From a virus: 22,721 bases of DNA. Below the pieces are notes generated by a model. It was not told where the DNA came from. It saw only the letters and a program-made list of their open reading frames with translations, and made no database searches. The stretch's first letter is position 1, and each line of letters begins with the position of its first letter. The position numbers and the translations under genes are program-made. The stretch covers positions 1-22,721 of the IMG/VR virus record IMGVR_UViG_3300043099_000485; one strand, 5' to 3'. Below are positions 3,126 to 22,721 of the stretch, piece after piece.

Positions 3126-5087
3126 ATGACAAGCACACGAGCACAAGTAATTACCCGACGAACTTATAACAGACCCATCAGTGATGATGGCAAACAATTT
3201 GAAACTTGGCAAGATACTGTTAGCCGAGTAATCTCACATCAGGCATGGTTGTGGGAACGTGCTGCCGGTAGGCAGCTGCTTCCCAATGAGTACGCAGAAC
3301 TAAATCGCCTAGAACAACTTATGCTTGAGCGTAAAGTTTCTATGAGCGGTCGTACCTTATGGCTAGGCGGCACACAAGTAGCTAAAAATCGTGAAGCATC
3401 ACAGTTTAATTGTAGCTTTACAGAAGTAGAAACTGTATATGACGTAGTAGATGTACTATGGCTACTTTTACAAGGTTGCGGCGTAGGATTTAAGCCTATT
3501 ATAGGCACACTAAATGGATTCTCAAAACCTATTCAAAATATCGAAGTGGTACGATCACAGCGTACTGAAAAGGGTGGCTGTGAACATAATGTAGAAACTT
3601 GGGACCCGCAAACAAAAACTTGGCGTATTCAGGTTGGCGATAGTGCAGAAGCATGGGCTAAAAGCATTGGTAAACTAATGGCAGGAAAATATCCTGCTGA
3701 TACTCTTGTTCTAGACTTCAGTCAACTGCGTCCTGCTGGTGAAAGGTTAAAAGGCTATGGATGGATTAGTTCGGGTGACTCGGCTATCAGTACTGCTTAT
3801 GTTGCTATCGCCCGTATCCTTAATGGACGGGCAGATTCACTACTCACCAGAATGGATATCATGGATATTGTTAATTGGCTTGGTACCATTCTGTCTAGTC
3901 GCCGAAGTGCTGAGATTGCGCTTTTCGACTACGGCCAACCGGAGTGGCAAGAATTTGCAGTAGCTAAAAAAGACTGGTGGTTGCATGGCAATGCACATCG
4001 TCAGCAAAGTAACAATAGTCTAGTGTTTAATGAAAAGCCTACCTACGAGCAACTAAGCGAAATATTTGCAATTATGCAAGAAGCTGGCGGAAGTGAGCCA
4101 GGGTTTATTAATGCACAAGAAGCACGTCGTCGTGCACCTTGGTATAAGGGAGCAAATCCTTGTGTTGAGATTCTACTCGGAAACAAATCATTCTGTAATC
4201 TTACAGAAACAGATATTGGAAAGTTTAAGGGAAATACCGCAGGACTTCACGAAGCTATACGGCTTGCCGCCCGAGCTAATTACCGTCAAACCTGTGTTAA
4301 CCTCAAAGACGGTATCCTCCAAGAAGCATGGCATCTCAACAATTACTTCTTGCGACTGTGTGGTGTAGGCCTAACTGGTATTGCTAAGCGTCCAGACATG
4401 ACTGGATATGATTATGAATACCTAAAGCGTACAGCTACTAGTGCAGCCATTGGTATGGCAGATGAGCTAGGGTTGCCTCGTCCTAAAAACATTACTTGCG
4501 TTAAGCCGTCAGGCACACTAAGTAAAATTATGGATACAACTGAGGGTGTTCACAAGCCGCTAGGCAAGTACATTTTCAACAATGTGCAGTTTAGCAAGTA
4601 CGATCCAGTTGTAGATAAGCTACGTGAGGCAAACTACAAAGTATTTAATCATCCTACTGATGATACCGGTGTTCTAGTAACCTTTCCAGTAGAGTGGTCG
4701 GATGTTCCGTTCCATAAACAAGACGGTAAAGAAGTTAACCTAGAAACTGCTATTGATCAGCTAGAGCGTTACAAGTTAATTCAGACTAGTTGGACTCAGC
4801 AAAATACGTCAGTAACTATTAGCTACGAGCCACATGAAGTTCCACAAATTGTGGATTGGTTAATGAATAATTGGGACTGCTATGTTGGCGTTTCATTTAT
4901 TTATAGAAGTGATCCTACAAAAACAGCCAAAGATCTTGGCTACTTATACCTACCACAAGAAGTTGTCGACGAATATACGTTTCGCACATATGTTCAAGAC
5001 CTAAAAGCCGTCAATATAGATAGTGCCAATAGTTTTGACGCAATCTTAGATGACGAATGTTTAACCGGCGCATGCCCAGTAAAGTAA
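3126..5087 (+). CDS. nrdJ: Adenosylcobalamin-dependent (class II, monomeric) ribonucleoside-triphosphate reductase
   Basis: The enzyme reduces ribonucleoside triphosphates to dNTPs with a 5'-deoxyadenosyl radical from vitamin B12. Seen in the 653-aa sequence: Cys96 in SQFNCSF, GCGVGF at 117-122, the radical loop NPCVE with Cys346 and Glu348, Cys357 in SFCNLTE, and the C-terminal pair Cys645/Cys650 in ECLTGACPVK. The spacings match my recollection of the Lactobacillus leichmannii enzyme (radical Cys408 to redox Cys419, eleven residues; tail pair 731/736, five residues), so the redox chain appears complete. It is some 85 residues shorter than that enzyme (739 aa), with the shortfall spread upstream of the active site. 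The start has a strong GAGGAG four bases before ATG. No separate small subunit or glycyl-radical activase is needed or seen. Activity would depend on host cobalamin. Confidence 0.92.
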   Translation: MTSTRAQVITRRTYNRPISDDGKQFETWQDTVSRVISHQAWLWERAAGRQLLPNEYAELNRLEQLMLERKVSMSGRTLWLGGTQVAKNREASQFNCSFTEVETVYDVVDVLWLLLQGCGVGFKPIIGTLNGFSKPIQNIEVVRSQRTEKGGCEHNVETWDPQTKTWRIQVGDSAEAWAKSIGKLMAGKYPADTLVLDFSQLRPAGERLKGYGWISSGDSAISTAYVAIARILNGRADSLLTRMDIMDIVNWLGTILSSRRSAEIALFDYGQPEWQEFAVAKKDWWLHGNAHRQQSNNSLVFNEKPTYEQLSEIFAIMQEAGGSEPGFINAQEARRRAPWYKGANPCVEILLGNKSFCNLTETDIGKFKGNTAGLHEAIRLAARANYRQTCVNLKDGILQEAWHLNNYFLRLCGVGLTGIAKRPDMTGYDYEYLKRTATSAAIGMADELGLPRPKNITCVKPSGTLSKIMDTTEGVHKPLGKYIFNNVQFSKYDPVVDKLREANYKVFNHPTDDTGVLVTFPVEWSDVPFHKQDGKEVNLETAIDQLERYKLIQTSWTQQNTSVTISYEPHEVPQIVDWLMNNWDCYVGVSFIYRSDPTKTAKDLGYLYLPQEVVDEYTFRTYVQDLKAVNIDSANSFDAILDDECLTGACPVK

Positions 5088-5964: not shown

Positions 5965-6654
5965 TTAATCCTTGTATGCTAAAATTATTTGTTTACACAT
6001 TTTACTACGAACTATGTCTTGATCTAAGAATCTAACTACTTCTATACCTTCAATGCCTTCTAGTCTTTTTATAGCATCTTCAAGTCCTGAGTTAGCTAAG
6101 TCTCGCTGGTCTGGATCTCCGCTTAGAATTACTTTACAATTTTTACCTATGCGTGATAAGAGCATTTTTAGTTCAGTTTTAGTTAAGTTTTGTGCTTCAT
6201 CCACTAAAACTATTGCATTATCAAATGTTGCTCCACGCATAAATCCTATAGGTCTGGGTTCTATATCATGATTTTTAAGTGCATATTCATAGAATCCTTT
6301 GCCTAAAGATCGTTGAAACACGTTGTCAAATGGTTCTAAGTATGGGGCATACTTTTCCTCTAATTCACCTGGTAAAAATCCTAGTCCACGACCTGTTTCT
6401 ATATTAGGACGAGTTAGTATAATTTTATTTACGCGTCTATGAAAAAGCTCTCCTGCAGCGTAACTAGCGGCTACAAATGTTTTACCTGTACCTGCGCTAC
6501 CTACTCCAAAAACTACCTCGTTTTGTTTTATAGCATTTAAGTATTGTTCTTGTATAAAATTCAGAGGTTTTACATCCTTAAAACCATACTCAATAGGGTT
6601 TGACTGAGTATTGGTTTGTTGTTTGCGAGCTTTTTTACCTGATCTAGTTGCCAT
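5965..6654 (-). CDS. phoH: PhoH-like ATPase
   Basis: This 229-aa protein is a P-loop NTPase of the PhoH family. It has Walker A GSAGTGKT (52-59), the family block LTRPNIETGRGLGFLPG (80-96), Walker B VLVDEAQN (149-156) and the sensor-like SGDPDQRDL (178-186). The N-terminus (SGKKARKQQTN) is basic and disordered-looking. PhoH is common in aquatic phages; in E. coli it belongs to the phosphate-starvation regulon, but its biochemical role is unsettled, with helicase/RNase-like activity proposed for relatives. Finding it with pstS in the same genome fits a phosphate theme but does not prove one. The start ATG has AGGG eight bases upstream. The 40-bp gap before it is the largest in the minus block. 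Confidence 0.93.
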   Translation of the reverse strand: MATRSGKKARKQQTNTQSNPIEYGFKDVKPLNFIQEQYLNAIKQNEVVFGVGSAGTGKTFVAASYAAGELFHRRVNKIILTRPNIETGRGLGFLPGELEEKYAPYLEPFDNVFQRSLGKGFYEYALKNHDIEPRPIGFMRGATFDNAIVLVDEAQNLTKTELKMLLSRIGKNCKVILSGDPDQRDLANSGLEDAIKRLEGIEGIEVVRFLDQDIVRSKMCKQIILAYKD

Positions 6655-12279: not shown

Positions 12280-12738
12280 TTATACGGGTTGGGTTGGCCA
12301 TTCTACTGACCAAGGAAAGTTTGATTGTGTGGTAATATTTCTAAGAGCTTGTCTATACGTTGCCCATGTTTGTTTATCTACAGGGGTGTCTGCTACTTGT
12401 GTCCAATCTGTGCTTGAAAGTAGTTCATTTCTACGTTTTCTTATGTCGTATGCAGCAGTATCAAATTTAGTTTGAATGTGTTCTGGAAGTGCATCTACTA
12501 CACTCCAAACCCTTGTCCAAGTTCCGTTTTGTAGAGTTGGTTGTAATTCAACTAATTCTTTAGTATGATCAATCTGTGGCATTACGCTTTCTGCTACCCT
12601 AAAAATACCTCTACTATTCAGAGAACTTTCTTCTACAGGAATAGTAAACGATGTATTAGGAAAATCTACTCTTAAATCGTACAGATTATAAGGGTATTTT
12701 TCAATTTCACCATTACTATTTAATTTTACATATATCAT
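12280..12738 (-). CDS. Phage tail assembly chaperone-like protein
   Basis: The C-terminal third of this 152-aa protein (about 98-150) has the block RRNELLSSTDWTQVADTPVD, then ATYRQALRNI and FPWSVEWPTQP. This block is characteristic of a phage tail assembly chaperone/tail fibre assembly family whose usual form is R..LL..TDWTQ..D.P.....W..YRQ.LR.I......P....WP. The N-terminal part (MIYVKLNSNGEIEKYPYNLY, LRVDFPN) is a small beta domain seen in such proteins. It should help fibre folding or attachment. The start has AAGGA six bases upstream, and the gene follows the fibre gene set directly. Confidence 0.82.
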   Translation of the reverse strand: MIYVKLNSNGEIEKYPYNLYDLRVDFPNTSFTIPVEESSLNSRGIFRVAESVMPQIDHTKELVELQPTLQNGTWTRVWSVVDALPEHIQTKFDTAAYDIRKRRNELLSSTDWTQVADTPVDKQTWATYRQALRNITTQSNFPWSVEWPTQPV

Positions 12739-13427: not shown

Positions 13428-16400
13428 TTAATTATCGTAGTTAGTTAAATAAGAACCGCGCCATCTACTTCCAGCATCATCTGTAACAAACATAAATAAG
13501 TGAGTTTTACCAGTTGTTAGGGAAGGAGCAGTATTACCAGGCCATTTTACACTTGCAGGCCAAGTAACCGTACCGCTAGTATGTGTTAGTTCAAGTGTAA
13601 ATGAATACGCAACATTAAACCCGGACGCAGCAGGTACATTACTAAAAGTAAATGTGCTATTGCTACTAATAGTTCTTGTAAAGTAATTGCCTTCTCTACA
13701 ATCAATATCTAATGAAGAGGTAGATCCGCTGTAGGTGTAAATTACGGCTTTTACATTCATAATAAAAGTTTCGGCTACTTGCATAGAAGAAGAACTTCCT
13801 GCACGCAAAACTACGCGATCGTTTGTACCAGATCCAGCATCTAAGAATAAATCTTGTGAAGTTAAACGGTTAAATGAGTAAATCTGTGAAGATATTTCGG
13901 TACCCGAACTATTCTTATCAGCAAATCGTATCATTCCTCCAAATCTGCTACCAACAGGTGTTAGAGTTCTTCTAATAACAATGACAGGATAGTCAATACT
14001 ACTATTAACGTTATTTTCAATTAAAAATGTTGATTGAGTACGAGTACTACCAAACATATACATGGGTATGTCTGTTGCCGTTCCATATGCATTATCGCTT
14101 GGGCCGCTGGCCGTATTAACTCGTAGTTTACTATTAATAAACAAGGTGCCGGTCATTGTGCCGCCGGTTAGTGGTACCTTACTAGGATCACTTGCTGTAC
14201 CAGTTATATTGATGCCCCAAGTACCCGACGCTCCACCGCCTGTTAGGGTTGGACTATAGCTAGTGTAGTTACCGGCGTGTAGTACAGCATTACCATTGTC
14301 GTAGAAGTTGACGTCGCCAGAAGTTGAAATCAAATTAAATCCGGCAAAGATTGGCTGTGTCGAGCCGGGATCGGTTGTTCCTTGTAGAGTACTGAAATCA
14401 CAACCAGTGCCGCCATGAAGAGCTTCTCTAAAGTAGTAGGTAATACCAGCTCTAACTCGAAGGTAAACCCAGTTACCATTACCAGCAAGATCCGCAATAC
14501 GAGCGTTAGAAATGTAAAAGCCTTGCCCAAAACTTGCATTTGCACCATGCTCTCCATATTGCACAACCATCATTTCTTGACCGCTGTGCCATTCGCGAGC
14601 TTGAGCGGTGAACTTTGCAGTGCAACCACCATATGGGCTATTGCTATTCTCGTTGATTGAGCGAGTTACATAGAACTCTATCTGGTGTTGGCCAGAATTG
14701 AAAGTGTTACCGTTAGCATAATTAAACCTAATCCATATATATCCGCTAGCATCACTTGGTGTAGTATAGATAACAATGGGGGCAACTTGAGATGACGAAA
14801 TATTAGTAACTGTACCTGCACTGTCTGCATAACCTACATGGGTATCAGCATGTGCACTATCTCCACTATAACCATACAACCTCCAATAACTACCAGTCCA
14901 GTGAGTTTGCACACTGTAATTAGTATCATCTTCACGGCGGTATAGGCGGTAGGGGCCTGGACGAGCGGCACTTGTCCACATACCAACCTGACCAGTAATT
15001 GCAGATGCTGCAACGCTGGCAGCACTGCCTGCACTATTAGCATATCCCGCATTACTAGCACTAGCTGCACTACCGGTAATACTTATACTCCAAGTTCCTG
15101 ATGCTCCGCCACCTGTTAGGGTGGGTGCATAGTTATTATAGTTGCCGGCAGCAAGAAGTTTACCAGTTTGACCCCTAGTAGTCCAAGGGTTTGTGTACAG
15201 TTCACCATCGTTTTCATATAGTGTAGTTGCGCTATATCCACCACGATGAAAGGATAAGCCTGGTGGTGTGTTATCAGTAGTATAAACCTCAATATTTGAT
15301 TGGCTGTAACTTGTACCACGACCATTTACACTTACTATTAGTCGCCCAGTTAAATTTCCTCCACCTAGTGGTAGTGTGTAGTTGGTGTAGTTTGAGCTAT
15401 CAAGAACTGCAGCAGCTGTACCGCCTCCGTACGAATTTTTGTGTACATATGCAGTACCATTGTTCCACCGCCATTGCCAGCCATAGCTGTTATTATGAAA
15501 TCCTGATGTATTTGAGTCTGTATTAATCATTAGGGATACATTGCCATTACTAGCATCAAACTCTATACCGCCCCAACCATTACGCGATCCAGCACTTCTC
15601 CAACTACCATAACTAGAATTATTTGGATAAAAATGAGCAGCATTTAATCCAGAGTACAGTCCACTATGGTTTGGAAATTCAATCCACTCGTTTGAATAGT
15701 TACGAGCACTAGTAGTCCAAGCAGTAGTGGTAAGTCTACCTGTCATTGTTCCGCCAGTTAAAGGAACCGCATAGCTACTATAATTATCAGCGTGTAGTAC
15801 TTGATTGCCGTTTATAGTTACAACACCACTACCGTTACCAATAATAAAATCGGCACCTCCAGTAGTTGTAAATCTGTGCCGATTACCACTACCTGCTCTG
15901 TACCACGAGTCGGTACCATCAGCATCTAGTTGAAGTCGCGAAAATATTACTGCTTGCCCTGTGCCGTTTGCTGCGCCGCTATCAATGGTATTAATATATA
16001 GAGGTGCCCAAGCACCAAGTGCATCATTATGAGCAAATACACCAGCAACTCCGCCATAGGTGCCAAGAAAGGCAGCCTTATCCATACTAGAATTTCTTGA
16101 TACAATTCGACCAAACCAAGCAGTACCAGTACCATTATGTTGTACTGAAAGAGATTGATTAGAAGTAGGAGTTATTGTTAAATTATCGTCTATAGTAACT
16201 GAACCATTAAAGTAGCTGGAACCATTATTATAAAAATCAAAATTAGCATTGTTGGAACTACCAACACCTAACTGATTAATACGCGTGTTACCTGTAACAG
16301 TACCACCACTTAGTGGTAGTGCATAGCTACTATAGTTTCCAGCATGTAGTACCTGATTGCCGCCTTGTTGTAGCACAGTCTCAATATTTACAGTGCCGTA

Positions 16401-16979
16401 TCCAAGACTTATTTGCTTTTGCCAACTAGAACCATTATTAGCCCAGAAGGTAAGACCAGGATCTTGTGCATCAATAGCACCTAGAGCTCTAGAACCATTA
16501 GTCCACCATACTGACGGTGTGCTGTTACCATTACCATCAAAGTTTACAACTCTACTACTACCAGTAGTTGCAGCTAAGGTATGAGGAAATGTAGTACTGG
16601 CAGGCGAACTATTCCAACCGTTGACTCCGGCTCGTAAATTTCCACGTACTTGTAATTTACTACCGTCATCAATACCTGTACCAACTAGTACATTACCACT
16701 ATACTGTGCAAACTTAACCAGTCCGGTATCTAATACTTCTATGCTGGGAATTCCCGACACATCATTTACACTATAAATAGTTCCAGTTAATGTATTAGTT
16801 ACGCTAAATAGCTGACCGGCGCTACCCTCCAAGCTAATAGTTCCACTACTAGTTGGATACACACGTAGGGTAATTGTTTGTGGGCCTAGTGTGCTGCTTG
16901 CTCCAACAAACTCAATTTTAGGGTCGGCAGTTTGACTCCGATTAGGGGTAATTAAAATATTTTTGTCAGACAAGGCCAT
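13428..16979 (-). CDS. Large modular tail fibre protein, 1183 aa
   Basis: The N-terminus (DKNILITPNRSQTADPKIEF, TLRVYPTSSGTISLEGSAGQ, SVNDVSGIPSIEV) is a common tail-fibre start in aquatic phages and probably attaches to the virion. The shaft repeats modules headed by LHAGNYSSY followed by (P/A)LxGGTxTG or PTLTGGGASGTW, at about residues 210, 400, 534, 617, 910 and 937. The spaces between hold Asn/Gly/Ser-rich beta domains. The C-terminus (about 1085-1183, with LDIDCREGNYFTRTISSNST, LELTHTSGTVTWPASVKWPG and LFMFVTDD) is a conserved beta cap. Host-receptor recognition is the expected role. The start has AGGA seven bases upstream. No frame break is visible. Confidence 0.9.
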   Translation of the reverse strand: MALSDKNILITPNRSQTADPKIEFVGASSTLGPQTITLRVYPTSSGTISLEGSAGQLFSVTNTLTGTIYSVNDVSGIPSIEVLDTGLVKFAQYSGNVLVGTGIDDGSKLQVRGNLRAGVNGWNSSPASTTFPHTLAATTGSSRVVNFDGNGNSTPSVWWTNGSRALGAIDAQDPGLTFWANNGSSWQKQISLGYGTVNIETVLQQGGNQVLHAGNYSSYALPLSGGTVTGNTRINQLGVGSSNNANFDFYNNGSSYFNGSVTIDDNLTITPTSNQSLSVQHNGTGTAWFGRIVSRNSSMDKAAFLGTYGGVAGVFAHNDALGAWAPLYINTIDSGAANGTGQAVIFSRLQLDADGTDSWYRAGSGNRHRFTTTGGADFIIGNGSGVVTINGNQVLHADNYSSYAVPLTGGTMTGRLTTTAWTTSARNYSNEWIEFPNHSGLYSGLNAAHFYPNNSSYGSWRSAGSRNGWGGIEFDASNGNVSLMINTDSNTSGFHNNSYGWQWRWNNGTAYVHKNSYGGGTAAAVLDSSNYTNYTLPLGGGNLTGRLIVSVNGRGTSYSQSNIEVYTTDNTPPGLSFHRGGYSATTLYENDGELYTNPWTTRGQTGKLLAAGNYNNYAPTLTGGGASGTWSISITGSAASASNAGYANSAGSAASVAASAITGQVGMWTSAARPGPYRLYRREDDTNYSVQTHWTGSYWRLYGYSGDSAHADTHVGYADSAGTVTNISSSQVAPIVIYTTPSDASGYIWIRFNYANGNTFNSGQHQIEFYVTRSINENSNSPYGGCTAKFTAQAREWHSGQEMMVVQYGEHGANASFGQGFYISNARIADLAGNGNWVYLRVRAGITYYFREALHGGTGCDFSTLQGTTDPGSTQPIFAGFNLISTSGDVNFYDNGNAVLHAGNYTSYSPTLTGGGASGTWGINITGTASDPSKVPLTGGTMTGTLFINSKLRVNTASGPSDNAYGTATDIPMYMFGSTRTQSTFLIENNVNSSIDYPVIVIRRTLTPVGSRFGGMIRFADKNSSGTEISSQIYSFNRLTSQDLFLDAGSGTNDRVVLRAGSSSSMQVAETFIMNVKAVIYTYSGSTSSLDIDCREGNYFTRTISSNSTFTFSNVPAASGFNVAYSFTLELTHTSGTVTWPASVKWPGNTAPSLTTGKTHLFMFVTDDAGSRWRGSYLTNYDN
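14201..14283 (-). repeat. Fibre shaft DNA repeat, copy A (PTLTGGGASGTWGINITG module)
   Basis: This segment encodes the HAGNYTSYSPTLTGGGASGT, then WGINITG unit. Its bases 14227-14252 are identical to 21061-21086 in the other fibre gene. Similarity extends across the whole unit. Confidence 0.85.
15073..15153 (-). repeat. Fibre shaft DNA repeat, copy B
   Basis: This copy lies in the same gene as copy A and encodes NYNNYAPTLTGGGASGTWSI followed by SITG. It is more diverged than copy A but keeps the CCTGTTAGGGT core. Confidence 0.8.
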
Positions 16980-16996
16980 AATTAGTTCCTATTATT

Positions 16997-18076
16997 TTAT
17001 ATGCCAAATCTGGCACGTTCAGCATAAAAAATTGTTTGTATCTCTGCGTCCGTTAGTACTCGGTTATACGCATACACAAATGAAAATTCTGCATCTGAGT
17101 ATTCGCCGTTTGTGCCGACACCTATACCGTTAGGCCCAGCACTTGCATTAGCATTAGGTCCAGCCACTAAATTACCATTTACGTACAGGCTAGCACTATC
17201 TGTACCGGTATTCCAAGTTGCTGCATGTATTCGCCAGTTGGTGTCGCTTGCTCCTGCTCCTACTCCGCTAACCCAGCCCTCTGCATAGTAATTTTCTGTA
17301 GTAGTGTTCCAGTGACCAATTAACCAGTTGTTATTTATTCCATTAACTATTCTGCCACGAGTACCCCCAGTATATCTGGCTGCAGATACTACTGTATAAC
17401 TACTACTAGCTAAATTTAGATTAGTAATCTGAAGATTATTTCCAGCACTATAGCTAAGTTTTCCACCATTACTAGGCGACCAAGTCATTGTACCAAACAT
17501 AGGAGCAGGGTAAGTACCAGCAACTAAATCCTCTAAGCCTGCTCGCTTACACTGTACATCCTCTAGCCAGATACTTATATTGCTATAATCATACCCGTGT
17601 ACTATAAAACTAGCAGCTGTTGAGCCTGTGGTAAAATATGCCCAAGTAAAGTAAAAGCCGTCGCCTAAGTCTACTATATTGCTAGACGAAAATATACCGT
17701 ACTCCGAAATCTGAGATCCACTAGAATTGTACTGGCGAATATAGAATAGATTAGGGTTGGGTGTGTTTGTTTGCCAACGAACTCTAGCAGTTACTATATA
17801 CGGAACACTTGGAGTGCAGGCTGTAACTGAATGATTACTATTCCACCAATTAACTCCGCCGCCATTGCTATTAGTAATCGTTAGGGTAACACCAGTTTTT
17901 CCTGTTTTACTAACATACGAGCCACTAGTTCCTACTAGACCATTCCAGTTATTAAAGCTAGAGTATGTACTCTGTATTCTTTCGGGGCCCGTACCCATCA
18001 TAGATTTAATATTGCTAGCATCAATGGCAGCAATTAGTCCACTTGTTACGATTTGGGGTCCGTTATATACACTCAT
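16997..18076 (-). CDS. LamG/concanavalin-like tail adhesin, copy 2, 359 aa
   Basis: The protein starts with MSVYNGPQIVTSGLIAAIDA and ends with YNRVLTDAEIQTIFYAERAR followed by FGI. These are the first and last strands of LamG-like (concanavalin A-like lectin) domains in phage tail proteins. The middle holds a carbohydrate-binding-module-like part (about 70-175, with PYIVTARVRWQTNT, DLGDGFYFTWAYF) and the LamG domain (about 215-359, with TWSPSNGGKLSYSAG, YTVVSAARYTGG, WRIHAATWNTGTDSASLYVN). It would bind host surface sugars. It overlaps its upstream paralogue by ATGA and has only a weak upstream GGA, so coupled translation is likely. It looks complete. Confidence 0.84.
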   Translation of the reverse strand: MSVYNGPQIVTSGLIAAIDASNIKSMMGTGPERIQSTYSSFNNWNGLVGTSGSYVSKTGKTGVTLTITNSNGGGVNWWNSNHSVTACTPSVPYIVTARVRWQTNTPNPNLFYIRQYNSSGSQISEYGIFSSSNIVDLGDGFYFTWAYFTTGSTAASFIVHGYDYSNISIWLEDVQCKRAGLEDLVAGTYPAPMFGTMTWSPSNGGKLSYSAGNNLQITNLNLASSSYTVVSAARYTGGTRGRIVNGINNNWLIGHWNTTTENYYAEGWVSGVGAGASDTNWRIHAATWNTGTDSASLYVNGNLVAGPNANASAGPNGIGVGTNGEYSDAEFSFVYAYNRVLTDAEIQTIFYAERARFGI

Positions 18077-19281
18077 ATTCCGTATAACCCCCGTTGTGCA
18101 GCAAAGTTTTGTAGGACTTCACTAGCTGTTAATCCTCGGTTATAAATTCTAACATAATAAATTTTTCCAATAAACCATCTTTCACTAGATGTCGAGAATC
18201 CTCTACCTATTTGTATGTCATTAAAATTTCCTGGCCAAGTATATGCTGCTGTTCCAGTTTGAACTTGCGTTCCATTATAATATGATGTATAGTTCAAATT
18301 ATCTTTTACAATTGTTGCTACATGTGTTGCTGCTTGATTTAAACCTGAAGTAACGACAGTTCTAGTATCATAATTACCCGAAGTATCACCAATTAACCAA
18401 ACTAAAGTACCTGAACTATTTTGTTCTAATCTAGGACCAATATTACTATATGAACCATTAAATCTTAACCAATTGCAATCAATGGGATTTCTATAATTCT
18501 CAACACTATCTGATTTAAATGCTATTTCAACTGTAAAATTAGATATATTACTTAAAGAGCTATTAATATAATTGCTACCATTAAAACTAAAAGTACCGTC
18601 CGTATTATAAGTCAAGCTTTGTGCAGTAATTGTACTTTGACCGGTTAAATCTAATACAGCTTGTGTATTAGAACGAGAACTTGGAGTATATTGAGCAACA
18701 AAGGTAGAATTATTTCTGTCTTCTTTAAAAGGCCCAGCCCAATATATAACTATGGGAACGTTTAATGTAGCAGATAGTGGATTTATAGCCCAGTATTTTC
18801 CATCACTTCTTGTTACAGTATCATACCATATAACATGTGCCTTATACCAGCCATCACCCATAGCATAATTATTACTACTGCTTTGCCAACCGGCTATATT
18901 TGAATAATGAGTATATATTGGTGTACTTGCTAGCGGTACTGTAGATTTAAAGAATATAGAGTGACCTGTATATCGATTTGCAGTACCTCCTCCTCCTCCA
19001 CTTACTACACCAATGCCAGGATTATTTGCATTTGACAACCAACTAACACCACTAGCAGTTGTAGGAGTTAGTGTTAATTTATAAACTGTTGCTCCTTTAT
19101 AGTATTCGCCAGTAGTTGTTAAAGAGGCACTAACATCTCCTGATACATTATTATAAATACTCATACCATCGCCAACAAGATTAGTTGTAGGCTGACCTAA
19201 CCATGATTTTTGAGTATTTTGTATGTCATAATAAAAAACTAAACCATTGGTAACTATTTGAGGAGAGTGTATAAGTGCCAT
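18073..19281 (-). CDS. LamG/concanavalin-like tail adhesin, copy 1, 402 aa
   Basis: This is a paralogue of the next gene. It starts MALIHSPQIVTNGLVFYYDI and ends YNRGLTASEVLQNFAAQRGL followed by YGI. A carbohydrate-binding-like part (about 60-190, with YTGHSIFFKST, MGDGWYKAHVIWYDT) precedes the LamG domain (about 225-402, with TYNTDGTFSFNGSNYINSSL, FTVEIAFKSD, IQIGRGFSTSSERWFIGKIY). The DNA is AT-poorer in its paralogue: sampled lines here have 25-32% G+C, against 52-58% in the richest lines of copy 2. That suggests the copies did not arise by a recent local duplication. GGAG lies five bases before ATG. Confidence 0.85.
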   Translation of the reverse strand: MALIHSPQIVTNGLVFYYDIQNTQKSWLGQPTTNLVGDGMSIYNNVSGDVSASLTTTGEYYKGATVYKLTLTPTTASGVSWLSNANNPGIGVVSGGGGGTANRYTGHSIFFKSTVPLASTPIYTHYSNIAGWQSSSNNYAMGDGWYKAHVIWYDTVTRSDGKYWAINPLSATLNVPIVIYWAGPFKEDRNNSTFVAQYTPSSRSNTQAVLDLTGQSTITAQSLTYNTDGTFSFNGSNYINSSLSNISNFTVEIAFKSDSVENYRNPIDCNWLRFNGSYSNIGPRLEQNSSGTLVWLIGDTSGNYDTRTVVTSGLNQAATHVATIVKDNLNYTSYYNGTQVQTGTAAYTWPGNFNDIQIGRGFSTSSERWFIGKIYYVRIYNRGLTASEVLQNFAAQRGLYGI

Positions 19282-19282
19282 A

Positions 19283-19843
19283 TTATCTCCATATTCTTAT
19301 GTTTTTTATTACGGTAATAGCATTTGATCCAACTTCACTACATGCCCTACCATGATGAATTCCACCTAAATTGCCATTAACATTTCTGCGACGAACAAAT
19401 GTACATTTTCTATATGTAGTTGTATTGTACCGCATAAAGTTATTTGCATCATTATCACACGCAGATGCTTTGTAATGTGTTACAAATTGCGCTTCATCTT
19501 GTGCTAAATATGTTCTAATGCATTTATCTCCGGCAGATTCATCATAATTGTAAATATTTCCATCACCATTTGAAGAGCCATATCCACCAGGTTCCATATA
19601 TGTCCAACATGCTGCAGCACCTTTAGTCCAAAATTCTGCAGATATTCTAGTCCAAGGAATAGTATCTTTAAGTTGAACAAAAACTCCAGTAGAATCACAA
19701 CTACTTCCAGTATTATGTTGAATCATCATAGAATAGCCATCATTTTCTTCATCCTGTGATAATATAGTTGCACCTACTAAATAGATAGCATTAACATCAG
19801 AATATGTAACAATTTTTGGCGCTATATTATAAATAACTCCCAT
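19283..19843 (-). CDS. Cys-rich putative tail adhesin, 186 aa
   Basis: The N-terminus (MGVIYNIAPKIVTYSDVNAI) echoes the PQIVT start of the two LamG proteins downstream. The body has six cysteines (SSCDSTG, AACWTY, DKCIRT, SACDND, RKCTFV, RACSEV), many aromatic residues and an end IKNIRIWR that could be a closing beta strand. No signal peptide is seen. I do not recognise the family; position between a fibre gene and LamG adhesins suggests a virion-tip role. Two ATGs compete: the one at 19843 forms TAATG with the stop of the gene before and has AGGA eight bases upstream, while that at 19849 has only two bases of spacing. I prefer 19843. Confidence 0.66.
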   Translation of the reverse strand: MGVIYNIAPKIVTYSDVNAIYLVGATILSQDEENDGYSMMIQHNTGSSCDSTGVFVQLKDTIPWTRISAEFWTKGAAACWTYMEPGGYGSSNGDGNIYNYDESAGDKCIRTYLAQDEAQFVTHYKASACDNDANNFMRYNTTTYRKCTFVRRRNVNGNLGGIHHGRACSEVGSNAITVIKNIRIWR

Positions 19844-20055
19844 TACCATTTTCCTTCTGGGCAGTGTATATCTATATACTTAGTTCTATGTTGAACTAGA
19901 CAAGAGCATTTTGAACACTTATCGTTGTCTAAAAATTCGCATAAATTGCATATTTTTATTCTTTTAGTAACTAATTCTGGTGAAGCATAGTCTTGATCTT
20001 CTTCTATAGACTCATAGATTGCTATACCATTTACATTATGTTGTATAGTTTTCAT
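19843..20055 (-). CDS. Small Cys-cluster (zinc-ribbon-like) protein, 70 aa
   Basis: The C-terminal half has ICNLCEF (Cys36, Cys39), KCSKCSC (Cys47, 50, 52) and a final HCPEGKW (Cys65). The pattern CxxC...CxxCxC...CPxGKW is a small zinc-binding module that I recall beside fibre genes in several aquatic phages. The N-terminal half (MKTIQHNVNGIAIYESIEED) looks like a short beta-hairpin with an acidic loop. A role in fibre assembly or as a chaperone is possible; function is unknown. The start overlaps the fibre stop as ATGA, with AGAGG seven bases upstream. Confidence 0.76.
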   Translation of the reverse strand: MKTIQHNVNGIAIYESIEEDQDYASPELVTKRIKICNLCEFLDNDKCSKCSCLVQHRTKYIDIHCPEGKW

Positions 20056-22721
20056 TCTTCTACCTCTACCTCCAACTTAGCTACATCCTTACGCTCTGCT
20101 TGTACAAAGTAGTAGCAGTCTATGTCTGCAGCCCAAGCTCCGTCTATGTCAACCCACATACAGTTGTTCCGGACTTCACGAATATATAGTTGCTGCGGTT
20201 TGCCGCGACAAGTAAGTTGTACGGTTATACTATCCGGGTCTACTAGTTCAGTCCAATACTCAGGTAGTTGAATACAATCTGTACCCTGCAGCCTGCCGCG
20301 AACATACACGCCATTTTCTGGACCTTCAAGCGATCCATAACGTAACTTTTTGCCGGGCTTGGTTGGGTGTGGGATAAGAAATGACTTAGTAAGAGCAGTA
20401 AGTCCACCATTAGGTAAGTTTAAGGATCCTGCGTTTGACAACGACATCCTAGTAACACCATCAAACTGAAATTCTAAGCCAGTTTCAGCTCCGCGTGCAT
20501 TGATATAGTGTGTTGCACCATCTGCATTAAGATCAAGAGAGTCCCAATCTGCCCCACCATTTTGAACTCGTAAAATATTTTGAGCAATAAAACTACCGGT
20601 AGTCATGTAGTCGCCAGTACCACCAGTTTTACTGGTTAAACTATCAAAAGAATGTGTGTGCGATATAGGAACAGTATAGTTTGTGTAATTACCAGCATGT
20701 AGAATTTGATTACCACTTAGTTTTACACTAGTTGTATTAAAATTAAGTGAAGTTGTTGTATCTGCATAAAAACCAAGTAAGGTACCATAAGCAGAGTTAT
20801 TTGAGGAAAAAAATCCTCCGTTTTCATATGCATAGTAAGAGCCATCGACTAGAGTATACCCTCGACCACCGTTTGAAAGTAAAACAAACTCAGCCCCACC
20901 AGTCATTGACACGCCATTTTCGCGTGTAAATCCATTAGATCCTAGATCTCCAAGCCACGAACCAGACTGATACCATAATGCCGGTATGCTCGTTATGCCA
21001 GACCAGGGAACACTACCAGCACTACCAGCACTACCAGTTATATTAATACCCCAGGTACCTGACGCTCCACCGCCTGTTAGGGTTGGGCTGTAACTGTTGT
21101 AGTTGCCACTATGTAAAGACTGACGAATATTAGCAGAAAGCGCAACTTCTTTTGCTGTAGTAGGTTTTGCTACACCAGTAATTGAAGTAACACGATTTGT
21201 AGCTCGTGTTGCGTAAGCTGAATAAACCTTTACGTTGTATCCGTTCCAATATCCTTGACTTGGAAACCAGAAACATAAGTTGCCGCCGTTGTTAATTGCA
21301 ACAAGACCAGTAATATTAAATCCATTGGAAATACCGCCGTGGTTAATAATCGTGTCGGCATAGATATAACCCTGATATACCAAGTCTAACGGTATAATAT
21401 TTCCGTAGCTGTTACCACGAATTTCAAGAACAAAGGGATCCCCCTCACTAACTGCGTAGTTAATATTTGTAGTAATTAATGTACCGTTTGGAAAGTCACG
21501 ATCTGAGTGATACCATTCAGTTGTATCAATGTTAGCTGAACCGTTAAAGCTTGTACCGTTTATTAAACGCGTAGTTCCAAGAATGTTAGCACTACCAGCA
21601 TTTCCTGTAATATTTATACCCCAAGTACCACTAGCTCCCGTACCTGTTAGGGTTGGACTATAGCTGTTGTAGTTGCCAGCATGTAGTACCTGATTGCTAT
21701 TTTGAGTAATTCCTCCAATAACATTAAGAACTCCTGCTTGAGTAAGAGTCATTACCTGCGTATTAGTATTTGATTGGTACCAAGCGAGAATATTTGAATT
21801 ATTGTCTAGGAAATTCCACCAATTTGTAGTTCCGGCAGTCTGGAATTGAATACCTGCTTGATTGGCTATTACACTTCTGTTCGCAAAAAAATATCCATTA
21901 GAACTACTTGCTGTAAATTGATTACCTGTATAGTTGTTTCCGGTATTTAGAGCATTAGCTGTAGCAGCATTGCCACTTATACTTATATCCCAAGTACCCG
22001 ACGCACTTCCGCCTGTTAGGGTTGGGCTATAACTGTTGTAGTTTGCAGCATTTAGAATTTTATCGCCAAAATGATAAGTGCTTGACTTATCGTCGTTAAC
22101 ATAAGCTATATCTGCTGCACTAGGACTGTCATAAAAAACTGTATAACACCCACTGGTTCCATCCGTAGGATTTGTACTTTGATAGCTATGCCCATATGTT
22201 GTTGCGGTTACACGAACTGTTGTATAATAATCTACATCAATATAAACATCTTGATAATACGTATTTTGACCAGAGTATTGCCAACCAGCATAAGTTACTG
22301 TACCTAAACTAACTCTAAAATAACCAGTATTTACTCCATCAGCATCTTTTAGTCGTAATATCCAACTAGTTCCGTTACCCATTCCGTAGTAACCAAACAA
22401 ATTGTAGTCTACGTATCCACTACTCCAATCTTCTTGAACTATTTTTATACGAATATTTTGCCACGTATTTATCCAATGGTTTGGAGTACCGTATACTCTA
22501 CCGATTGTATGTCGACGTCCCTGTGCTCCGTTTGCAGCAACTACCCATTGCTTAGTTCTTTCAGCTCCATCGGGCAATACTAGATCTGCAATAGACCAAG
22601 TAACGGCAGCACTACCATTTACAGACCTAGAAGTTCCGCCTATTGTAATATCTCTAGCAGTACCCCAATTGGCTGTAGTAATATTAGCACTTCCATTAAA
22701 ACTAGTACCATTAATATTTCT
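20052..22721 (-). CDS. Large modular tail fibre protein, N-terminus outside window (889 aa visible)
   Basis: The frame stays open to the right edge, so the gene is cut. The first visible residues are RNINGTSFNGSANITTANWG. An internal TTG near 22577 is not a start. The shaft repeats NYNSYSPTLTGGGASGTWGI and related units three times (copies C-E below), between domains rich in Asn, Gly, Ser and Tyr. The C-terminus (about 110 residues, with KSFLIPHPTKPGKKLRYGSL, EGPENGVYVRGRLQG, then LPEYWTELVDPDSITVQLTC and FVQAERKDV) is a conserved tail-fibre end domain. I recall it in many phage fibres, where it may help trimerisation or chaperone folding. Host recognition is the expected role. Its stop overlaps the start of the small Cys-cluster gene. 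Confidence 0.9.
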   Translation of the reverse strand, partial: RNINGTSFNGSANITTANWGTARDITIGGTSRSVNGSAAVTWSIADLVLPDGAERTKQWVVAANGAQGRRHTIGRVYGTPNHWINTWQNIRIKIVQEDWSSGYVDYNLFGYYGMGNGTSWILRLKDADGVNTGYFRVSLGTVTYAGWQYSGQNTYYQDVYIDVDYYTTVRVTATTYGHSYQSTNPTDGTSGCYTVFYDSPSAADIAYVNDDKSSTYHFGDKILNAANYNSYSPTLTGGSASGTWDISISGNAATANALNTGNNYTGNQFTASSSNGYFFANRSVIANQAGIQFQTAGTTNWWNFLDNNSNILAWYQSNTNTQVMTLTQAGVLNVIGGITQNSNQVLHAGNYNSYSPTLTGTGASGTWGINITGNAGSANILGTTRLINGTSFNGSANIDTTEWYHSDRDFPNGTLITTNINYAVSEGDPFVLEIRGNSYGNIIPLDLVYQGYIYADTIINHGGISNGFNITGLVAINNGGNLCFWFPSQGYWNGYNVKVYSAYATRATNRVTSITGVAKPTTAKEVALSANIRQSLHSGNYNSYSPTLTGGGASGTWGINITGSAGSAGSVPWSGITSIPALWYQSGSWLGDLGSNGFTRENGVSMTGGAEFVLLSNGGRGYTLVDGSYYAYENGGFFSSNNSAYGTLLGFYADTTTSLNFNTTSVKLSGNQILHAGNYTNYTVPISHTHSFDSLTSKTGGTGDYMTTGSFIAQNILRVQNGGADWDSLDLNADGATHYINARGAETGLEFQFDGVTRMSLSNAGSLNLPNGGLTALTKSFLIPHPTKPGKKLRYGSLEGPENGVYVRGRLQGTDCIQLPEYWTELVDPDSITVQLTCRGKPQQLYIREVRNNCMWVDIDGAWAADIDCYYFVQAERKDVAKLEVEVEE
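21034..21116 (-). repeat. Fibre shaft DNA repeat, copy C
   Basis: Encodes the NYNSYSPTLTGGGASGTWGI unit. It shares 26 identical bases with copy A in the other fibre gene (21061-21086 against 14227-14252). Confidence 0.85.
21604..21690 (-). repeat. Fibre shaft DNA repeat, copy D
   Basis: Encodes a LHAGNYNSYSPTLTGTGASG unit. Its high-coordinate end (GCATGTAGTACCTGATTGC) is also found at 16343-16361 in the other fibre gene. Confidence 0.82.
21973..22055 (-). repeat. Fibre shaft DNA repeat, copy E
   Basis: Encodes the NYNSYSPTLTGGSASGTWDI unit. It keeps the GCCTGTTAGGGTTGG core of copies A and C, with changes on the low-coordinate side. Confidence 0.82.

Follow-up and report, generated by a model that had tools for sequence, protein, structure and literature searches.

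Both tail fibre genes of the phage analysed here, F1 and F2, are probably modular, whereby a repeated linker would act as the usual joint of a pool of cassettes that is shared by the two genes and by other phages. Junctions fall in this linker, and the linkage of neighbouring segments is lost across the linker and kept inside a cassette. The exchange of fibre cassettes is thought to be a main way in which phages follow changing hosts, and its joints are as a rule deduced from protein domains alone; in the uncultured phage group studied here, natural joins are resolved to the linker.

Two fibre genes divided by a repeated linker

The stretch of DNA that was analysed, referred to as the window, comprises 22,721 bases of a virus record and carries the two minus-strand fibre genes in its right half (Table 1). 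Both genes match PHROG tail-fibre families, and a tail assembly chaperone (PF16778) is encoded next to them at 12280-12738, which places them in a tail gene cluster. The full length of F2, 1782 aa, was taken from a longer contig in another record (L005/L015), which is identical to the window across at least 19,291 nt. The Pfam search of F1 and F2 yielded no fibre family, and solved structures searched by F1/F2 sequence gave no useful match (best E 0.49). Named phages gave short matches only, so that the rearranged variants described below were drawn from IMG/VR contigs. Between F1 and F2 lie three genes and 3.1 kb; an earlier, sequence-only reading of this DNA had put the genes 7 kb apart, which is too far, the linker copies themselves being separated by 6-8 kb. 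A gene for a Laminin_G_3/ConA-like domain (18073-19281) is located between the two fibre genes. Its sequence is largely different in the relative L016 (see below), and whole-gene exchange may have occurred there as well.

Outside the fibre genes, the window encodes phosphate-related host-type genes in a phage, namely a PstS-like phosphate-binding protein (PF12849, E 1.4e-32) and a PhoH-like protein, at 776-1792 and 5965-6654. A ribonucleotide reductase at 3126-5087, which looks B12-dependent (PF17975; PF21995 below its cut-off), adjoins a dUTPase and a 5'-3' exonuclease. Upstream, positions 1-3123 of L005 encode a protein in which collagen-like GTNGTNG runs occur together with near-identical tandem repeats, each roughly 90-110 residues long; this may represent another recombining repeat array.

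F1 is laid out as a conserved N-terminal domain, five LHAGNY-type anchors and a conserved C-terminal domain. Over F1 and F2 there are nine anchors, at which a conserved motif is repeated between variable fibre segments with a spacing of 83-291 residues. The linker is rich in glycine, serine and threonine and has the consensus LHAGNY-xxY-xPTLTGGGASGTWGINITG, with a shorter form LHAGNYxxYxLPLTGGTMTG. Five copies of PTLTGGGASGTW are present in the window, A and B in F1 and C, D and E in F2, as the sequence-only reading had described and as the repeat listing confirmed; four LHAGNY-type anchors are without GASGTW (L1-L3 in F1, L4 in F2). The 26 bases reported as identical between copies A and C match exactly, and the LHAGNY-type boundary reported for both genes corresponds to a 22-base identity. 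To call the modules near-identical was too strong, since the pairwise DNA identity of copies A-E is 62-72% over 126 nt and 70-87% over the 72-nt core, with longest exact matches of 11-26 nt in the ten pairs. A second recurring linker, INGTSFNGSANI, occurs at F2 residues about 897 and 1281 (the latter near window position 21564), and near it the linkage of neighbours is likewise lost in most relatives.

Several similar repeats across two fibre genes could also suggest that a dedicated diversity generator acts on F1 and F2, either by retroelement-driven hypermutation or as a site-specific invertase or shufflon. However, copies A-E are direct repeats, and the repeat listing of the window contained no inverted pair joining linkers. 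Furthermore, matches to reverse transcriptase (PF00078) and to serine and tyrosine recombinases (PF00239 and PF00589) were found in 0 of 5 records each, whereby these records may be fragments. We consider such a generator most unlikely for F1 and F2.

Table 1. Fibre genes, linkers, anchors and cassettes of the window.
Feature	Position	Strand	Evidence or remark
Fibre gene F1, 1183 aa	13428..16979	-	ORF; C-terminus matches PHROG 9017 tail fiber protein, E 9e-17
Fibre gene F2, 889 aa in window, open at window end	20052..22721	-	ORF; PHROG tail fiber matches
Linker copy A (NYTSYSPTLTGGGASGTWGINITG), F1	14183..14297	-	repeat family D1; L016 homology starts here, L018 homology stops here
Linker copy B, F1	15056..15170	-	repeat family D1; L016 homology starts here
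Linker copy C, F2	21017..21131	-	repeat family; DNA homology end in ten non-redundant relatives
Linker copy D, F2	21587..21701	-	repeat family; L007 and L013 homology stops here
Linker copy E, F2	21956..22070	-	repeat family; L069 97-100% identical over ~120 nt before copy, unrelated after
A/C match, 26 identical bases	14227..14252 and 21061..21086	-	exact comparison
LHAGNY boundary GCATGTAGTACCTGATTGC, 22-base identity	16339..16360 (anchor L1, F1) and 21676..21697 (copy D, F2)	-	
Anchor L2 (LHADNYSSYAVPLTGGTMTG), F1	15737..15810	-	repeat family D2; L018 homology starts here
Anchor L3 (SNYTNYTLPLGGG), F1	15346..15393	-	its preceding cassette joins copy A instead in L016/L017
Anchor L4 (LHAGNYTNYTVPI), F2	20642..20715	-	site of additional cassette in L016
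B-A cassette	14298..15055	-	distal part in L018, followed there by L1-type cassette at LHAGNYTSY
HFYPNN...SSNY cassette	15379..15644	-	before L3 here; before copy A in L016/L017; F2 homologue in L069
D-C cassette, predicted beta-sandwich	21132..21586	-	precedes different downstream neighbours in other phage contigs

Rearranged relatives and the position of the joins

All rearranged variants are metagenome contigs. Leaving the variable parts aside, L016 (3300032093_000663) shares about 89-93% identity with the window, and L017 (3300008110_000111), which carries a different IMG sample number, is 99.92% identical to L016 where the two overlap. F1 of L016 retains the N-terminal part of the window gene (89% aa, 272 columns) and its C-terminal part (95% aa, 285 columns), and its interior runs from the L1 cassette through another cassette, a B-type linker with part of the B-A cassette and the HFYPNN cassette to copy A. 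The HFYPNN cassette, which precedes B in the window, is joined directly to copy A in both L016 and L017. L017 likewise retains the F1 C-terminal part, preceded by other or permuted cassettes, and covers only this last of the L016 F1 joins. When a single crossover was fitted to the HFYPNN-to-A join, the optimum fell at the linker's NY codon; 71 of 90 positions then match one parent upstream, and 71 of 90 match the other downstream. F2 of L016 holds one cassette more than the window at anchor L4, and the cassette that precedes its copy C is a different one.

A second arrangement is found in L069 (3300005805_000085), whose other genes are 92% identical to L016 over 7136 nt and whose F2 shares 87.6% identity with the window along 774 nt upstream of E. 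Here, F2 is kept as far as copy E; what follows is homologous to the HFYPNN cassette, which is part of F1 in the window and in L016 (45% aa to L016 F1, 238 columns; 43% to window F1, 217 columns). The occurrence of one cassette family in F1 here and in F2 in L069 at this degree of protein identity reflects old traffic through a shared pool. At 6658-8916 of L069, F1 is cut to a 160-codon frame with conserved N-terminus (83% aa, 124 columns), followed by other short genes. L018 (3300044729_003591) belongs to an only distantly related phage; its B-A cassette (76% aa, 199 columns) leads at LHAGNYTSY into an L1-type cassette, the reverse of the window order. Variants bounded by the repeats, which the sequence-only reading had proposed to look for, do exist.

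As every variant comes from a metagenome, it might be that assemblers have joined unrelated fibres at the repeats. Against this, the exact repeats among copies A-E extend to at most 26 nt in the window, and the k-mers used by assemblers are usually longer than that. In addition, L016 and L017 carry the same HFYPNN-to-A junction, and the window agrees with L005 over the identical stretch given above. We regard chimeric assembly as scarcely credible.

When the window was compared with its relatives in ungapped alignments anchored at the linkers, the switch in identity lay within the linker or directly next to it in 15 of 17 comparisons, which were picked where the relative shares a cassette and are a description, not a test. 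Against L069, the roughly 120 nt leading up to copy E are 97-100% identical, the copy itself is 77-90% identical, and beyond it the identity is 20-50%. For L4 against L016 it falls from 83-100% before the linker to 10-47% after it, and for copy A against L016 it rises from 13-37% before to 90-100% after. There are two exceptions. Homology of L1 to L016 passes through the linker and is lost about 150 nt beyond it, and the identity of L3 to L018 falls off gradually, beginning about 75 nt ahead of the linker.

Linkage was counted in 42 contigs, after near-identical ones had been dropped, at the nine anchors and with 40-residue stretches as flanks. This led to 73 relative-by-anchor cases with at least one flank homologue, and only in one of them were both flanks present in register. 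Inside the D-C cassette the flanks stay linked in 14 of 15 and 15 of 15 cases. Taken over every interior position that is not near a linker, 26-27% of the contig-positions are linked; this figure is low because of additional mosaic borders and of stretches shared widely, chiefly in the N-terminal parts. The loss of linkage between flanking cassettes also bears on an old tandem or segmental duplication inside the window phage, after which the copies would be diverged paralogues without any exchange. That the copies encode one unit and that their DNA identity has decayed would agree with such an origin. However, close relatives differ in cassette order and content with junctions in the linker, the arrangements of L016, L018 and L069 contradict it, and the copies are sorted neither by gene nor by genome (see the next section), so that we consider it very unlikely.

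The ends of DNA homology were collected from 35 contigs, again with near-identical ones dropped; ten of these had no match of 150 nt, and the other 25 provided 38 DNA matches of at least 150 nt with 64 internal ends. Linker windows contain 22 of the 64 ends, compared to 10.4 expected by anchor rotation (P=0.038), and 13 of 38 distinct end sites, compared to 6.1 (P=0.016), whereby these enrichments are upper estimates since BLAST extends into conserved linkers. The remaining 42 ends lie outside linker windows. Further clusters of ends are located at the end of the F1 N-terminal domain (16652-16690), at the start of the F2 C-terminal domain (20390-20412) and at the start of the D-C beta-sandwich (21497-21564), and these look like domain borders too. 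The linkers are apparently preferred, not exclusive, joints. Of the earlier proposal that each module boundary could be a site for swapping receptor domains, the role of the linkers as joints for swapping fibre domains is well supported; breaks also occur elsewhere, and a receptor-binding role of the domains is presumed.

The 42 ends outside the linker windows, many of them at domain borders without a linker, are what would be expected if any domain border serves, and they speak against a linker-specific joint. It could therefore be that selection alone has shaped the pattern. Illegitimate joins would then occur anywhere, the survivors would be those at domain borders, and the linker would be alike because the protein needs it and not because its DNA guides the exchange. 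The codon choice within the linker copies is relevant to this point.

Codon choice in the linker copies

In the window, codon identity was compared for ten pairs of copies, with the expectation derived from the codon usage of the two fibre genes and P values left uncorrected. Over the 12-codon core, where 3.65 identical codons would be expected for copies A and C, 9 of their 11 same-residue codons agree (P=0.0013); for copies A and E it is 9 of 10, with 3.3 expected (P=0.0003). The other eight pairs show a weaker excess or none, with A-B (5/11), B-C (5/11) and B-E (4/10) near expectation, and no synonymous excess was seen in the 3' flanks of copies A-E in any of the ten pairs. A wider comparison with ten copies from the window phage and two close relatives (45 pairs, 27 codons) yielded 575 identical codons among 985 same-residue codons, where 387 were expected (58% vs 39%). 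Synonymous identity therefore exceeds what codon preference explains, in agreement with the sequence-only reading.

Within genomes 197 of 345 synonymous comparisons are identical (57%) and between genomes 378 of 640 (59%); within genes the value is 263 of 438 (60%, by subtraction) and across genes 312 of 547 (57%). The copies sort neither by genome nor by gene, which fits free circulation or common descent and does not demonstrate a recent event between F1 and F2. Of the earlier suggestion of recent exchange or ongoing shuffling, a shuffling of cassettes is supported by the permuted variants, and the recent F1-F2 exchange is not upheld by these figures. A recent gene conversion between F1 and F2 in the window phage that keeps the copies alike was considered here. 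Copy A is closer to C and E than to its F1 neighbour B, and the strongest of all 45 pairs is F1B and F2a of L016, which have the same codon at 19 of 24 synonymous positions (P=4e-5). That identity is no higher within than between genomes argues against conversion, which we find unlikely. As a general claim, recent conversion within genomes is ruled out by this comparison; the single pairs L016 F1B-F2a and window A-E look strong.

Copy A agrees with its L016 counterpart in 12 of 22 synonymous codons, and the 200 codons downstream agree in 176 of 192. The corresponding values are 17 of 24 for copy C and its L016 counterpart, with 87 of 94 in the next 100 codons, and 16 of 22 for copy E and L069, with 119 of 140 upstream. 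The linker has thus diverged further than the conserved sequence beside it and has had a history of its own, clearly for A and more weakly for C and E. This would be expected if an exchange ends inside the linker and imports the version of another copy.

A DNA pattern for PTLTGGGASGTW matched at least 119 stretches of viral contigs. Among 116 exact copies from 81 loci, codon sharing amounts to 43.8% within loci (32.8% expected) and to a modest 32.0% between loci (27.0% expected). In a survey of 129 distinct cores from 95 loci, which are not independent of each other, the codon choice deviates from the gene's own usage at 7 of 11 positions once the following residue is taken into account, with P at about 0.01 or below for each. 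These position-specific choices, which recur across loci, are suggestive only. Should the linker be a common joint, its circulation would have left the recurring codons (such as CCA, CTA/CTG, ACA, GGT and ACT, each at a fixed place) behind as a trace. In other phages two or more copies within a locus were present in 56 of 126 sources, with a mean excess of +0.115 and the window in 8th place; this survey is for loose use only, as it counts some contigs twice (L164 is the contig of the window phage, L197 that of L016, L174 that of L032 and L157 that of L030) and as L118 and L138 share six cores.

The wide occurrence of the linker together with its modest codon sharing between loci is in line with selection alone. 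The synonymous excess in the ten-copy comparison speaks against it, as do the position-specific codons, with the dependence between cores noted above. Selection alone is thus a possible explanation, if not the one we prefer, and selection for joins at flexible domain borders does account for part of the pattern. A far-reaching version of the modular reading holds that the linker is kept as DNA, not only as protein, and provides a common recombination joint or "adapter" for trading receptor cassettes between unrelated phages and fibre genes. We put this forward tentatively and consider it rather doubtful; if true, the sequence would predict which phages can exchange which receptor cassettes.

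Joining, cassette function and known systems

For modular fibres with the linker as usual joint, we propose the following course. F1 and F2 would each have their own N-terminal and C-terminal domain, with linker-separated cassettes in between. Linkers from different cassettes, genes and phages are about 60-90% identical in their DNA, and in the window they share exact runs of 11-26 nt. This likeness would suffice for homologous strand exchange or template switching within a linker, and the products would be in-frame fibres with cassettes substituted, added, lost or moved to another place. A single cassette pool would serve both fibre genes as well as unrelated phages. The joining might be performed by SbcCD-like and single-strand-binding proteins together with the RecA of the host. 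Among the relatives, G004 carries genes for an SbcC-like, an SbcD-like and a single-strand-binding protein, and no member of the RecA, RecT, Rad52 and Erf families was found in the close-relative records, which may be fragments. Whether linker homology drives the joining or merely tolerates it appears to us evenly balanced.

AlphaFold2, given the D-C cassette together with 13 relatives, predicted a fairly confident beta-sandwich for the cassette, with a whole-model mean pLDDT of 64. The core residues 61-200 reach a pLDDT of 63-90 per 10-residue block, and both linkers are under 50. The solved structures nearest to the D-C model are the C-terminal part of WceF (Z 9.0) as well as phage tailspikes, C-terminal domains included, and T4 gp9 (Z 6-7). 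These structural neighbours of the model fit a fibre domain and name no ligand. A galectin-like resemblance (Z about 5) was discarded, being within the range of common beta-sandwich matches. A scan for the D-C cassette led to 25 loci. Most of the cassette is covered in 16 of them, including the window phage's own and some near-identical contigs; the remaining loci are weak matches, mostly to the linker part only. The cassettes would presumably bind receptors and decide host recognition.

A literature search for the letters of the linker motif returned nothing relevant. Exchange of fibre segments is already known from T-even fibres and from domain-shuffling surveys, and F1/F2 are a clear new case. 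At the distal tail-fibre/adhesin locus of T-even phages, recombination at short conserved motifs reportedly swaps segments, as is said to have been described by Tetart, Desplats and Krisch in 1998. F1 and F2 resemble this locus in having a conserved repeated motif and natural variants with junctions inside the motif. They differ from it in that the linker LHAGNY-xPTLTGGGASGTW is common to two separate fibre genes and that cassettes of beta-sandwich size move. In gp38 of the T4 superfamily, the segments are said to be short hypervariable stretches (reportedly Trojet et al. in 2011), whereas the anchors in F1/F2 are 83-291 residues apart.

A survey of phage receptor-binding proteins describes fragments shared by otherwise unrelated fibres and recent domain exchange in closely related phages, and declares itself agnostic about the genetic process (PMC10684548). 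F1/F2 likewise share fragments with unrelated fibres and show exchange among close phages, whereas their joins are tied to a named linker with similarity at the DNA level. In cryoconite phage pan-genomes, close aquatic phages interchange variants, including fibre variants, from a common pool (PMC7468147). There, gene variants or modules are exchanged, whereas in F1/F2 the exchanged units are cassettes below the level of the gene.
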